Assembly: GCA_949927415.1 (NCBI GenBank)
Contig: CATLFB010000001.1
Coordinates: 62,001 to 126,000 of the forward strand
Direction of reading: 5' to 3'
DNA: 64,000 bases
From: an uncultured Candidatus Melainabacteria bacterium
Lineage (GTDB): Bacteria; Cyanobacteriota; Vampirovibrionia; Gastranaerophilales; Gastranaerophilaceae
Shown here: in pieces, positions 1-44,242 of the stretch
Position numbering within the stretch: position 1 is the stretch's first letter
Layout: every line of letters starts with the position of its first letter
Notes under the pieces: generated by a model
What the model was told of the DNA's origin: nothing
Databases searched by the model: none
Seen by the model: only the letters and a program-made list of their open reading frames with translations
Position numbers and translations under genes: made by a program

Positions 1-65
1 TATTTAATTTTCACTACCCTCACACACTTTGAGGAATTGTTTGTAACCTTTCAGCCACATTTTTT

Positions 66-37890: not shown

Positions 37891-38675
37891 TTATTTTACG
37901 GATTGCCCTTTTGAATAAGTTTGATATTCAAGTTTATCCGTTCCTATCATTATGTTTTTTAAAGACTGTTCACGCGGATCAAGTTTGTTTCTGTAAACCC
38001 AGACCCAGTAATTGTCCCTTCCGTACTGATTCGGATTTTTTGCACCGTTGACATCAAAAGAGATATTAGCACAAATTGTTGAACTGTAAGTATAAGTTTT
38101 GTTGGTACCATCAGGATTTTTTAGAGGTCTTCCTAAAGCATCAGTACGGGTTCCCGTATACATTTTTTCCGCACAACCGCTTCGGTTTGTTCTAACCGTA
38201 ATAATTACACCGTTTTGGAGAATAATTTTAGGTGAGATGTCATCATTATATACCGTTGCTACGTTGTTGGTATCTGCTTGTAATTTTTGATGTTTTACAT
38301 CGTAATAGAACTGCGAACATCCCGACTGAGATTTAGACGAAAAAACTATTGAGCCGGTGAAGTATTTTGCCCAGTTTTTGGCAACAGTAAGAGCATCATC
38401 ATTTGCATTAAACAATAATCCGTTATCGCCGATTACACCATAATCTTTTTGTGCAAGCAGGAGTGAATTATTTATATCCGCATGAACTTTTTTGTTCTGG
38501 ATATAATTTCTCTGTCCTGATTTTTTTGAATCAATGCAGGCAGTGTCATAGCTGCGACTATCCCTATTATGCCGAGGGTTATGAGCACCTCTGCAAGCGT
38601 AAATGCGGCTTTTTCGAAAATCCATAGCTCAATAAGTGAATAATTCATTAATTCCTTTTCATTTTTATTATTCAT
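37891..38675 (-). pseudogene. Type IV pilin-like gene interrupted by a -1 frame offset at an A7 run
   Basis: The first frame starts at 38675 behind AAGGAG (7 nt) and reads a 24-aa leader, then FTLAEVLITLGIIGIVAAMT and LPALIQKN, but ends at 38472. The second frame, open to 37891, carries the pilin head (QNKKVHADINNSLLLAQKDYG..., with cysteine pairs). They meet at A7 (38527-38521, coding strand CAAAAAAATC): one extra A, or a -1 slip, joins them as ...LIQKKSGQRNYIQNKK..., a 261-aa protein. This could be a phase-off contingency gene, programmed frameshifting, a recent mutation or a sequencing error. Confidence 0.8.
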
Positions 38676-40647: not shown

Positions 40648-41778
40648 TTAACAATTAGTCAACTTACCTAGTACAACCCGAGATTTTGCACCTGTGCATT
40701 CAGGAAGATTGTTCGGGATACCGTAATTAGCGCAGTAACCTAAAAGAGCAAATGCCATGACTTCTTTAAAATTATTCGAAATCCCGTATGATTCATGCGT
40801 TTTCAAATCAATATGTTTCGGCAAATAATGACGTAAATATTTCATTAATGTCGGATTGTAAGCGCCGCCTCCGCCTATAACAACCTCATTAACATCAATT
40901 GAAGGGTAAACAAATCTTTCATAAGCCTGCGTTATAGATTTCGCAGTCAAAGCAGTGAGCGTTGCAATAACATCCTTCGGCTCATGAGGTGCAAAGCGAA
41001 GCGCGTTTTCCGTGTATTCTGCAGAAAAATATTCGCGGCCCGTGGTTTTTGGCGGATTCTTAAAATAATATTCATCCTGCAAAAGACATTCAAGCCAGCT
41101 TTCTGAAATAGAACCTGAATTTGCGATTTCGCCATCCTTATCATAAGGCATGCCGAAAAACTTTCTGACACAATAATCAATCATCATATTGCCCGGTCCC
41201 GTATCAAAACCGAACGTTGAATTTTCTCTTGAAACAACTGTTACATTCGAAATCCCGCCGATATTTTGTATGCAAAAATTTTTCTTGAAAGGCTTGAACC
41301 ACTTTTCATCCGCAAAACACACAAGAGGTGCACCTTCACCGCCGTTTGCAATATCTGATTCTCTGAAATTTGAATACACTGAACAGCCTGTTTGGGCAGC
41401 AATAACTGAACTTTCGCCAATCTGAAGCGTGCTTTTTAAAGAAACTCCGTCTAACTTTTCATTAAACGGGAAATGATAGATTGTCTGACCATGGCTTGAG
41501 ATAAAATCAGGTTTTCCATGCTCTGAGATAATCAAATTGGCAGCATCCGCAAAACACTTTCCAACCGCAAAATTCATCCGGCAAACATCTTTTACGGAAG
41601 CCTCGCCGTTAAATAATTGAAACAATTTTGCCTGAATATGCTCAGGATATTTGTAATTAATCCCATGTATAAGTTTGCAGCTCAAATCCGGATTAACAAC
41701 ACAAAGACCGGCATCTATACTATCACAAGATGTCCCGGACATTAACGCTATAATCTTTTTTGATTCCAATTCCTGCAT
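40648..41778 (-). CDS. anmK: Anhydro-N-acetylmuramic acid kinase
   Basis: 376 aa. AnmK phosphorylates and opens 1,6-anhydro-MurNAc during peptidoglycan recycling. Motifs: IIALMSGTSCDSIDAGL (ATP loop), FISSHGQTIYH, IQNIGGISNVTVV, FGFDTGPGNMMIDY, and VVIGGGGAYNPTLM. Length fits. No RBS precedes the ATG; TAAAAT ends about 7 nt upstream, so the mRNA may be leaderless. Confidence 0.95.
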   Translation of the reverse strand: MQELESKKIIALMSGTSCDSIDAGLCVVNPDLSCKLIHGINYKYPEHIQAKLFQLFNGEASVKDVCRMNFAVGKCFADAANLIISEHGKPDFISSHGQTIYHFPFNEKLDGVSLKSTLQIGESSVIAAQTGCSVYSNFRESDIANGGEGAPLVCFADEKWFKPFKKNFCIQNIGGISNVTVVSRENSTFGFDTGPGNMMIDYCVRKFFGMPYDKDGEIANSGSISESWLECLLQDEYYFKNPPKTTGREYFSAEYTENALRFAPHEPKDVIATLTALTAKSITQAYERFVYPSIDVNEVVIGGGGAYNPTLMKYLRHYLPKHIDLKTHESYGISNNFKEVMAFALLGYCANYGIPNNLPECTGAKSRVVLGKLTNC

Positions 41779-41905
41779 TAATTATATTTTACAGGCATGC
41801 TTTTCTTTAAGCAACTATCACACATACTGTTACAAATTATGTAACAAACTATTCCCAAAATTTCCTCTAAAAAACTTTTTTATAATTTTATAAATTAATA
41901 AATAA

Positions 41906-42068
41906 TAAACTTTAAAACCCGTCCGGATAAAAAAATATCCCTAATCTTTTTCTCTATTAACACCTCAATCGGACTTTTTTGCCATCACCTCTTTTTCTTT
42001 ACTATCCGTTATGTCTGACCACTGACCCGTTTCCGGGGTTCCTCCGCAATGCCCTTCGGCAGCCATTA
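41906..42068 (-). ncRNA. Candidate structured RNA (riboswitch-like)
   Basis: In this 605-bp gap (41779-42383) a GC-richer island stands out. On the minus strand from 42068 it reads ATGGCTGCCGAAGGGC, then GCGGAGGAACC, then a GNRA hairpin CCCG-GAAA-CGGG, and near 41942-41917 a hairpin GGATA-T7-TATCC followed by GGACGGGTTTT. The first part resembles the 5' half of ydaO/yuaA (cyclic di-AMP) riboswitches, but the conserved 3' half is not recognisable. anmK downstream seems to have its own promoter. The remaining gap sequence, 42069-42383, is AT-rich with a TATAAT at about 42305. Confidence 0.4.
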
Positions 42069-42383
42069 ATATTAAATTCTTTTTGTGAACTTTTGTCCTG
42101 TCCACTTTTATAATGTAACTTTAAGTTAAATGTTTGACAAGCGAAAAAAAATTAATTAAATTTTACAATTGACCATGCCCCTAGTTTTTATGCGGAAAAA
42201 TTCAAGTTCTTAAATCTTAATGAAGAAATCTTAATGAAATTACGTAAATTTTGTGACAAATTTTAATTGACAATTTAAAATTAGAAGAGAATTTATTTTT
42301 ATAGTATAATCATGCTATTAAGATTGGAATTTCTAATTTGTTTGTATTAAAATTAAGAATTAAAATATAAAATCGGTATTTAT

Positions 42384-43322
42384 ATGAAAGAATTTATAAA
42401 AAATAACAAGATAACATATAATCTTATGTCTTTTACGGCATTCAAAACTTTGCTGATATTTTCACTTCTTCTTGAAGCCCCGCGCTCCTATCAGGACATT
42501 ATAGATTACTTTGAAAAACACGACTTCATTAATGAAAAAATCTCAATTGATACCGCACGCGTGTATATTAATTCACTAAAACGCGCAGGATGCGTCATCA
42601 CAAAAACCAAAAGAGCCGAAGGCTCTAAATTCATTCTTGTATCGCACCCGTTTGAACTTTCAATTTCGCCTGAACAAATCAAGACAATATCAAAAGTTTA
42701 CAAAACAATAATAAAAACCGTATCGATTTATGAACTTGTAATACTTGAAAAATTCCTCAGAAAAATTGCCTCAAACACAAAGAACGAAGAGTTGCAGAAT
42801 CTGATTGAAAAGACATCAGTTCTTTCCGGAATGGACACGAATTTACTTGAAGATTTGCTAAACTGTTGCAAAAACAATCAGCAAATTGTTTTAAACTACA
42901 ATTCGCCAAGGTCCGGCAAAACCAATTTGGAAATCATTTGTGAAAAAATGGGTTTTGAAAACGGAAAATTATATTTGTACGGCACAAGCCTCGATTACAG
43001 TCAGGCTTCATATCTTCTTGTTGCAAGAATCATCGGCATTGAACAAATCAAACCGAACAAGACAACTAATATTGAAATCGAAGAAATAACGGTAAGATTT
43101 GAAGTTAGAGCGGATTACAGGGAGCTTCAGCTAAAAGATAACGAAAAGATTCTAAAAACAGACAACAACAAATCTCTTCTTGAGGCAAAATCTTCAAATA
43201 AATTCGCACTGAAACAAAGAATTTTATCTTTCGGAAGCGCATGTACGGTTATTGCTCCCGAAGATTTCAGACAAGAAATTATTACAACTTTGAAAAAAAT
43301 GAGAGCGGAATATAAGTCATGA
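42384..43322 (+). CDS. WYL-domain regulator, first of a tandem pair
   Basis: 312 aa: N-terminal winged helix-like region (SYQDIIDYFEKHDFINEKISIDTARVYINSLKRAGC), a central helical part, a WYL domain (about 165-240, QQIVLNYNSPRSGK...KLYLYGTS) and a C-terminal WCX extension. WYL domains bind nucleic acid or nucleotides and control DNA-damage or phage-defence genes. ATGA overlap with the next gene shows coupled translation. Confidence 0.8.
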   Translation: MKEFIKNNKITYNLMSFTAFKTLLIFSLLLEAPRSYQDIIDYFEKHDFINEKISIDTARVYINSLKRAGCVITKTKRAEGSKFILVSHPFELSISPEQIKTISKVYKTIIKTVSIYELVILEKFLRKIASNTKNEELQNLIEKTSVLSGMDTNLLEDLLNCCKNNQQIVLNYNSPRSGKTNLEIICEKMGFENGKLYLYGTSLDYSQASYLLVARIIGIEQIKPNKTTNIEIEEITVRFEVRADYRELQLKDNEKILKTDNNKSLLEAKSSNKFALKQRILSFGSACTVIAPEDFRQEIITTLKKMRAEYKS

Positions 43323-44242
43323 AAAAATTAAGTGAAAAATATAACGAAGCATGTTTAAAAATCTTTGAAATGCTAAAACTCTTATCAAAGGGCACCGCGC
43401 ACTACAACGAAATAATCGACATTTTCTCAACGGATGAAAACAGTCCGAATGCGGCTGCACCCGTCATACTTAACAAGTATCTGAACACCTTGAAGATTTT
43501 CGGGATAAACATTTACAAATCAAAAAATGTTTATCACCTACAAAACTCATTTTTCTCGCTTAACCTTGACAAAAATGACATAAAAGTTCTGCAGCTTATG
43601 AAAAGTTCGGGATTAATTCTCACAAATTTCAAGCAAAAAGAATTATACGACTCATTCATAAACGATATTGAAATGCGCCTGACAAGTGCCTCCAGAGAAA
43701 TGCTTTACAGCGCAAATGACAAAAACAATATTCGCCGCAGTGAGTATTTTGTAAAATACAGAGACATAATAGAAAAATGCGAAACATACTGCTTTGAAAA
43801 CCAGAAACTGGAAATAAGCTTCACTCTGGACAGAAAAGAATACAAAGTTATATGCCACCCAAGAGAAATCACCTACATCAACAAAAAGGCATATTTATCA
43901 GTATTCAATCACTTGAGCCGCCAGATTTTCGATGTTCCTGTCGATGCAATAACAAGTATCAAACAAATGCCAGTAATCTCAGGCGGACGTGAAGTTCCGA
44001 TGACAGTCGTCTACAAAATCCGCAACAATCTTGCAAAAGCATACCGACTCAGAGAATGGGAAACAACAGACGGCAAAATCGATGAAGACGGATGGCTTAC
44101 AATTGTCAACAACAATGAAAATTTTGACGTTCTCATAAAAAGATTAATGCGTTACGACGTATCCTGCCAGGTAGTTTCTCCGAAAAGCTTTAGAGAACGC
44201 ATGATTTCCACTCTTGACGATACGCTCGCAAACTATCAATAA
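43319..44242 (+). CDS. WYL-domain regulator, second of a tandem pair
   Basis: 307 aa paralogue of the upstream protein with the same order: helix-turn-helix (residues about 10-65), WYL-like beta domain (about 160-225, KLEISFTLDRKEYKVICHPREITYINKKAYLSVFN) and WCX end (DVLIKRLMRYDVSCQVVSPKSF). A coupled pair recalls the PafB/PafC heterodimer of actinobacteria, a recA-independent DNA-damage regulator; equivalence is only an inference. dnaE lies immediately downstream but has its own promoter. Confidence 0.78.
   Translation: MKKLSEKYNEACLKIFEMLKLLSKGTAHYNEIIDIFSTDENSPNAAAPVILNKYLNTLKIFGINIYKSKNVYHLQNSFFSLNLDKNDIKVLQLMKSSGLILTNFKQKELYDSFINDIEMRLTSASREMLYSANDKNNIRRSEYFVKYRDIIEKCETYCFENQKLEISFTLDRKEYKVICHPREITYINKKAYLSVFNHLSRQIFDVPVDAITSIKQMPVISGGREVPMTVVYKIRNNLAKAYRLREWETTDGKIDEDGWLTIVNNNENFDVLIKRLMRYDVSCQVVSPKSFRERMISTLDDTLANYQ

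Follow-up and report, generated by a model that had tools for sequence, protein, structure and literature searches.

The 64,000-nucleotide stretch of Candidatus Melainabacteria DNA analysed here (the window) probably carries a gene for a stand-alone small RNA, present in Gastranaerophilales of the gut and not catalogued before. An alignment of homologues, together with a start inferred at 7 nt past the -10 element, places this gene on the minus strand at 41829..42105. RNA polymerase would start at a sigma-70-type promoter that belongs to the RNA and lies back to back with the promoter region serving a divergent pair of WYL regulator genes, and the structured RNA that is made would stop before the downstream gene anmK. 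The WYL regulator may control transcription of the RNA through conserved blocks that lie between the two, and the RNA may work by presenting the loop of a hairpin, P2, with its conserved AGAAANAGAGGUGAUGGC. A separate transcription unit is favored by the promoter, by terminators in other genera, by a second promoter for anmK and by loci in which anmK has been replaced, whereas the absence of a terminator in the window's genus and an ordinary folding energy speak against the stand-alone reading. Among the possibilities raised by the original prediction was a novel class of RNA or a small RNA that is independent, a suggestion now supported by conservation, the promoter, the terminators of other genera and covariation. 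Something real and selected is present at this spot, with borders at about 42105 and 41829 and with diagnostic sequences other than those first named, adding an uncatalogued, strongly constrained RNA family for the non-photosynthetic gut relatives of cyanobacteria.

Distribution and conservation

A DNA search with positions 42090-41880 (minus strand) as the query matched 22 of 99 genomes, the window's own included, and 12 of 13 congeners. The only congener lacking a match, G013, is 87% complete and is missing the WYL match as well. One genome of another family (G069) gave a single weak DNA match (E 5.7e-4), which covered only the A+T-rich query positions 174-205. A sequence-only model built from 17 loci (R1) had matches at E<=0.01 in 103 of 288 genomes and 18 of 41 genera of the family and in 62 of 117 genomes of the order, and at E<=0.001 in 41 of 146 genomes of the class; all of the R1 matches listed fell within one family of Candidatus Gastranaerophilales. 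The 69 homologous loci on which most of our counts are based are the R1 family matches to approximately E 5e-5, except G270, plus one locus from the DNA search (L018, genome G024), leaving out duplicates with an identical 120-nt core, 16S loci, G019 (L097), L167 and L183.

The aligned loci have in common the promoter, a 5' hairpin and the blocks AGAAANAGAGGTGATGGC and GATTAGGGATATT. AGAAA.AGAGGTGATGG was found in 56 of the 69 loci, and TTAGGGAT was located no more than 230 nt from the first core in 65. The invariance of the core letters is partly a matter of selection, because all 69 loci contain GAGGTGATGG and alignment A1 needed both cores. In a congener, G007, contig C11:56879-56969 gave a weak second R1 match (E 2.2e-4), possibly a second copy, and TTAGGGAT occurs twice, 16-24 nt apart, in L052, L054, L056, L072, L074, L083, L084 and L093, six of which belong to genus g11 and two to g38.

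The 18-mer of the core was found in at least 117 stretches of genome contigs. When 120 loci were checked, 3 viral ones included, TAGGGAT was present downstream in 69 and missing in 51, and among the matches listed the loci with TAGGGAT and a named source came from Gastranaerophilales, Melainabacteria and Scatousia, with the exception of L167; L183 (Gastranaerophilus) is one letter short of the motif. L167 is a contig labelled Fusobacterium sp. (JAMPIJ010000015.1) in which the RNA core is accompanied by the conserved upstream block and by an anmK-like start, and it is probably a misplaced (mis-binned) Gastranaerophilales contig. A phage origin of the RNA was rejected: the core pattern occurs in three IMG/VR contigs, none of which has TAGGGAT within 230 nt, and in one of the three (L250) it sits in unrelated sequence.

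Promoter, extent and elements of the RNA

The RNA has a predicted promoter of its own at 42112..42140 (minus), in which a -35 element TTGTCA (42140-42135) and a -10 element TACATT (42117-42112) are separated by a 17-bp spacer. The exact arrangement TTGTCA-17-TACATT was found in 52 of the 66 loci in which a -35 was found, and in the window it is also among the 8 promoter-like sites of a consensus scan (4.1 expected).

At the inferred transcript start, the alignment was read by eye as a 5' hairpin, GTGGAC/GTTCAC (42085..42105, minus), which takes the forms GTGGAC/GTTCAC, GTAGAC/GTTTAC, GTAATC/GATTAC and GTCG/CGAC in relatives, also by eye. It is followed on the minus strand by a GGCTGCC block (42058..42064) that reads GGCUACC or GACUACC in most relatives, the 5' arm of helix P2, CGGAT (42004..42008), the core AGAAAAAGAGGTGATGGC in the P2 loop (41981..41998), the 3' arm of P2, GTCCG (41970..41974), a second GAGGTG element (41961..41966) that is kept across the window's genus, a second conserved core GATTAGGGATATTTTTTT (41929..41946), and a 3' conserved stretch GAGGAAATTTTGGGAATAGTTTGTTAC..GTAAC (41829..41867) containing an inverted repeat at 41845-41829. 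The 3' end of the window's RNA was set at this GTTAC/GTAAC repeat, giving a length of about 277 nt. Intrinsic terminators were found in 43 of the 69 homologous loci and in 0 of 13 in the window's genus, and the RNA measures 149-353 nt from its inferred start in the loci with a terminator. TTTGGGG or TTTTGGGA was found in 12 of the 13 loci of the window's genus and in 24 of the 56 others.

The minus-strand strings that had been named as the mark of this RNA are all in place in the window, but they are not its conserved part, and its borders differ. They comprise GGCTGCCGAA (42064-42055), GCGGAGGAACC (42047-42037), a GNRA hairpin CCCG-GAAA-CGGG (42037-42026) and GGATA-TTTTTT-TATCC (41940-41925), all read from the sequence. 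GCCGAA-N7-GCGGAGGAACC has a single exact occurrence in the window in a search allowing up to 3 mismatches (0.03 expected from shuffles). GGCTGCCGAA and GCGGAGGAACC each occur in just one of the 69 homologous loci, the window itself, and the GNRA hairpin in 7 of 69; GGAGGA was found in 12 of 13 loci of the window's genus versus 5 of 56 other loci. The suggestion that the RNA ends at the GGATA hairpin is not supported, in that aligned relatives do not retain the right arm TATCC and the terminator starts 42-148 nt past TTAGGGAT in the 41 loci that have both. The single-sequence fold of the island is ordinary, with a minimum free energy of -30.0 kcal/mol compared to a shuffle mean of -32.8 (z = +0.76).

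Structure

Comparison of the homologous loci argues that the core AGAAANAGAGGTGATGGC lies in the loop of a predicted hairpin, P2, that is kept by compensatory changes. The P2 anchors, GGAY before the core and GUCC after it, are both present in 42 of the 69 loci. The closing pair, which is not part of the anchors, is a standard pair in 37 of these 42 (A-U 18, U-A 9, U-G 7, C-G 3), compared to a shuffle mean of 20.0 and with 0 of 5000 shuffles as high, and the two pairs outside it are at chance in the same loci. On 36 distinct rows, 31 have the closing pair (A-U 15, U-A 8, U-G 6, C-G 2, other 5), so that four pair types are represented, and the covariation value is 0.227 versus 0.068 (0 of 500 shuffles). 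Over the four P2 pairs, 96.5% of the cells in these 36 rows are paired, compared to 86.8 for shuffled rows and no more than 59.5 when the arms are slid; a single pair among the four was counted as informative, because the other three are anchors and never vary. The P2 alignment (A3) used 41 of the 42 rows, L063 having been dropped because of its longer loop. C-G replaces A-U in the window's genus (L001) and U-A in another genus (L075), and the changes are therefore not one inherited event. The exact anchors are missing in 27 of the 69 loci, and P2 was not seen by eye in at least six of these (L069, L076, L077, L080, L090 and L091).

Another possible helix, GCAGU/ACUGC, shares sequence with the 3' arm of P2. 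CAGU at +16 and a downstream ACUG were both found in 14 loci, and the closing pair of this helix is standard in 13 of them as a raw count (G-C 7, A-U 4, G-U 2, one mismatch); from the overlap, P2 and this helix would be either mutually exclusive or parts of a pseudoknot. We also tentatively propose a weakly supported long-range helix, P1, in which GGCUACC would pair with [UC]AGUU near the 3' end. A G-C form, GGCUG/CAGUU, was seen by eye in L059, L064 and L092, and a search for the 3' motif of P1 found none in 12 of the 69 loci, namely L018, five loci from the window's genus, four from g17 and two from g11. Among the RNAalifold folds listed by genus, the folds differ between genera.

Relationship to anmK

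The gene downstream of the RNA in the window, at 40648..41778 (minus), encodes anhydro-N-acetylmuramic acid kinase, AnmK (Pfam PF03702, E 1.2e-93; NCBIfam NF007148 over its cut-off). It has a separate putative promoter at 41786..41814 (minus), TTGCTT-17-TAAAAT, with 7 nt between the -10 element and the ATG (41778-41776). Elsewhere in the window, the minus-strand ORF 38472-38675 has a type IV pilin-like N-terminus (FTLAEVLITLGIIGIVAAMTLPALI) and overlaps the minus-strand ORF 37891-38625 in another frame.

The strongest competitor of a stand-alone gene is a cis-acting leader of anmK, that is, a new riboswitch-like class in which the hairpin before anmK is an attenuator and the signal sensed is perhaps a cell-wall sugar or a nucleotide. 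The arrangement of the locus lends this some weight, since anmK follows the RNA in 64 of the 69 loci (in L016 past an inserted gene), the terminator lies shortly before the start codon in many loci, and the overlapping helices GGAC/GUCC and GCAGU/ACUGC resemble a possible switch. In L183 and L167, moreover, the RNA core almost abuts the anmK start codon, with no room for a terminator or a spacer. We nevertheless consider a cis leader unlikely. A sequence of the form TTGNNN-16..18-TANNNT stands 3-14 nt before the anmK start in 56 of the 64 loci, 51 of them with a spacing of 17, compared to 3.8 expected from shuffles, suggesting that anmK has its own promoter, and this promoter overlaps the RNA terminator wherever a terminator is present. 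In addition, no anmK was found downstream in five loci that have kept the RNA. As read from the translations, the next gene is ribF-like in L017, convergent in L051, a helix-turn-helix gene in L065 and adenylate-kinase-like in L078, and in L058 the contig ends after just a short frame on the opposite strand. With the addition of L016, a terminator is present in five of these six loci, the exception being L065. The RNA and its terminator are thus kept beside other genes, and we therefore argue that anmK is not the reason for their presence. The window's genus, in which the RNA has no recognizable terminator, also fits poorly with attenuation.

The upstream region and the WYL regulators

A regulator gene of the HTH-WYL-WCX type (PafB/DriD-like) lies divergently at 42384..43322 on the plus strand, with its WCX domain over the cut-off and its WYL domain under it (E 0.017). 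Its end is overlapped by a gene for a second WCX-containing protein (43319..44242, plus; WCX PF25583, E 9.9e-7), and together they form a PafBC-like pair. The divergent WYL regulator is found upstream of the RNA in 68 of the 69 loci. An AlphaFold model of the 42384-43322 product (mean pLDDT 86.1, pTM 0.64) had PafBC (E 1.2e-10) and DriD (E 1.4e-10) as its best Foldseek matches in the PDB, each with probability 1.00, and the whole-chain TM values are low (PafBC 0.31, DriD 0.40; PafBC/DriD matches mostly 0.2-0.4). The modelled product is thus predicted to have the HTH-WYL-WCX architecture of the PafBC/DriD type. WYL homologues occur in 25 of 30 chosen genomes; for the 24 outside G019 the best matches have 22-39% identity, and the WYL flanks fetched from them contained no GAGGTGATGG, TTAGGGATATT or anmK match. 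In G019, GAGGTGATGG and anmK are both present.

Conservation extends upstream of the RNA promoter. The block GGGGCATGGTCAATTGTAAAA (42161..42181, minus) has a single occurrence in the window, and GGCATGG is present within 420 nt upstream of the RNA in 63 of the 69 loci. A longer intergenic block (42201..42238, minus), also with a single occurrence in the window, contains TTCATTAAGATTT twice as a direct repeat with a spacing of 14 bp, followed by AAGAACTTGAA, and TTCATTAAG was found upstream of the RNA in all 69 loci. Located between the WYL operon and the RNA promoter, the 42201..42238 block is a candidate site for the WYL regulator pair. The -35 element of the RNA (CTTGTCAA, minus, 42134-42140) overlaps a plus-strand TTGACA (TTGACA-17-TAAATT, 42134-42162), and the RNA and the WYL operon may therefore share a back-to-back promoter core.

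The strong conservation upstream of the promoter, and the WYL neighbor in nearly every locus, would also be expected if the conserved blocks were a DNA operator for the WYL regulators with overlapping promoters, and there were no functional RNA at all. This explanation appears very improbable to us, given that the spacing from the -35 element to the first core downstream of it varies, over a range of 68-173 bp, that P2 contains compensatory pairs, and that terminators are present in 43 of the 69 loci.

The core motif and possible functions

Part of the core, GAGGTGAT, is complementary to the 3' tail of 16S rRNA, ATCACCTC, and two genomes of the window's genus have the tail GGATCACCTCCTTTCTAG. 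Between AGAAANAGAGGUGAU and the 16S tail, 5 + 8 bp are possible, with the variable N placed in the unpaired step. The GGC after GAT is conserved, yet has no pairing with 16S. The possible pairing of the core with the 16S tail is a match at the level of sequence.

Another reading takes the core for a ribosome-binding site together with the first codons of a short leader peptide (AUG GCN ...). GAGGTGATGG with its ATG is present in every one of the 69 loci, which were selected for it, and codon 2 is GCN in 65. However, no conserved reading frame was found at GAUGGC AUG in the 69 loci: the frames range from 2 to 36 codons, 17 of them have only 2 codons, and the third codon reads AAA in 26 loci but is a stop, TAA, in 16. 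Furthermore, GAGG sits 2 nt from the ATG, a distance that is too short for efficient initiation. A leader peptide was rejected on these grounds, and we regard it as having very little chance of being correct.

For the stand-alone RNA, a loop that could form 8 + 5 bp with the 16S tail, and that lacks a start codon at a distance suited to initiation, would point to docking on, or competing for, free 30S subunits, or to a protein partner. The core may thus act on 30S subunits, as their decoy or docking site, or be bound by a protein. A further and quite doubtful idea is that the RNA is a dedicated partner of the WYL pair, in which the purine-rich loop AGAAANAGAGGUGAUGGC, as a single strand, would be bound by the WYL domain as an encoded nucleic-acid ligand, with free 30S subunits competing for it via the 16S tail. 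The WYL regulator would then read out the free pool of the RNA. If true, the partnership would represent a ribosome-status sensor in a lineage whose genomes yielded no Hfq (0 of 21).

Comparison with known RNA families and regulators

A scan with the 4227 models of Rfam 15 found nothing at gathering level at the locus, and scans of 41500-42500 (1001 bases) and 41850-42150 (301 bases) returned no family at E<=10. On 17 homologous loci, the Rfam models gave four sub-threshold matches at E<=5 (E 0.43-3.2). The openly licensed PubMed Central texts, as far as they were covered, contained no described small RNA or riboswitch for Gastranaerophilales, Melainabacteria or Vampirovibrionia.

The original prediction had noted a resemblance to half of the cyclic di-AMP riboswitch (ydaO/yuaA, RF00379), with a diverged riboswitch as one possibility, and had proposed covariance-model searches and an examination of relatives; the first gave no match at the locus, and the second revealed conservation and P2 covariation. 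RF00379 has conserved 5' segments, GCCGAA / GGAGGAACC, and a conserved 3' segment, CAGCTAAC. The 5' segments are present in the window, yet in only 1 of the 69 homologous loci, and CAGCTAAC, correctly described as missing, was found in 0 of 69. RF00379 was detected in 0 of 59 genomes, the window's own included, in a search whose stricter filters lose some weak matches and whose controls, B. subtilis and C. glutamicum, were positive. Despite the string resemblance in the window, the presence of a diadenylate cyclase (DAC) domain gene in the genome, from which it follows that c-di-AMP may exist in the organism, and the cell-wall role of anmK, these results make membership of the family extremely improbable, and we rejected it.

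Other known classes of RNA were also rejected. The 6S RNA model (RF00013) has no match at the locus, and the genome's 6S candidate sits elsewhere (G000 C1:45996-46164, 32.4 bits, E 6.5e-5, under the gathering score). A CsrA sponge was set aside since CsrA was found in 0 of 14 genomes of the window's genus; it occurs in 15 of 40 genomes, 12 of which are in other families, and two members of the family with weak RNA matches (G018 and G024) do encode it, which counts against the argument from absence. An Hfq-dependent RNA was rejected on the basis of the Hfq domain, PF17209, which accounts for the null count in 21 genomes given above.

Compared to these known systems, the RNA shares with the c-di-AMP riboswitch a few strings in its 5' third, a position near a cell-wall gene and a host with a DAC domain protein; ydaO-type riboswitches occur in front of cell-wall genes, according to PMC9960051. 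It differs from that class in having no model match and no CAGCTAAC end, in that its strings are not conserved, and in being apparently a separate transcription unit. Like 6S RNA, it appears to be a free-standing RNA gene. It resembles the CsrA-titrating small RNAs (CsrB/RsmY) in having several GGA-containing motifs, whereas its most conserved block contains no GGA.

The regulator in the window is comparable to PafBC and DriD in its predicted HTH-WYL-WCX fold and in the presence of two tandem WCX proteins. The WYL domain has been described as an Sm fold, and activation of WYL factors by RNA or another nucleic acid was raised as a possibility for PafBC (PMC6789036). Single-stranded DNA is reported to be the trigger of PafBC and the ligand of DriD, unlike the RNA considered for the window's regulator, and an RNA ligand is therefore less likely here; the portions of the literature searched gave no example of a WYL regulator with a small RNA devoted to it. 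The near-constant linkage of the RNA to a WYL regulator of the PafBC/DriD type offers a natural system in which to ask whether WYL domains that bind single-stranded DNA also read RNA.
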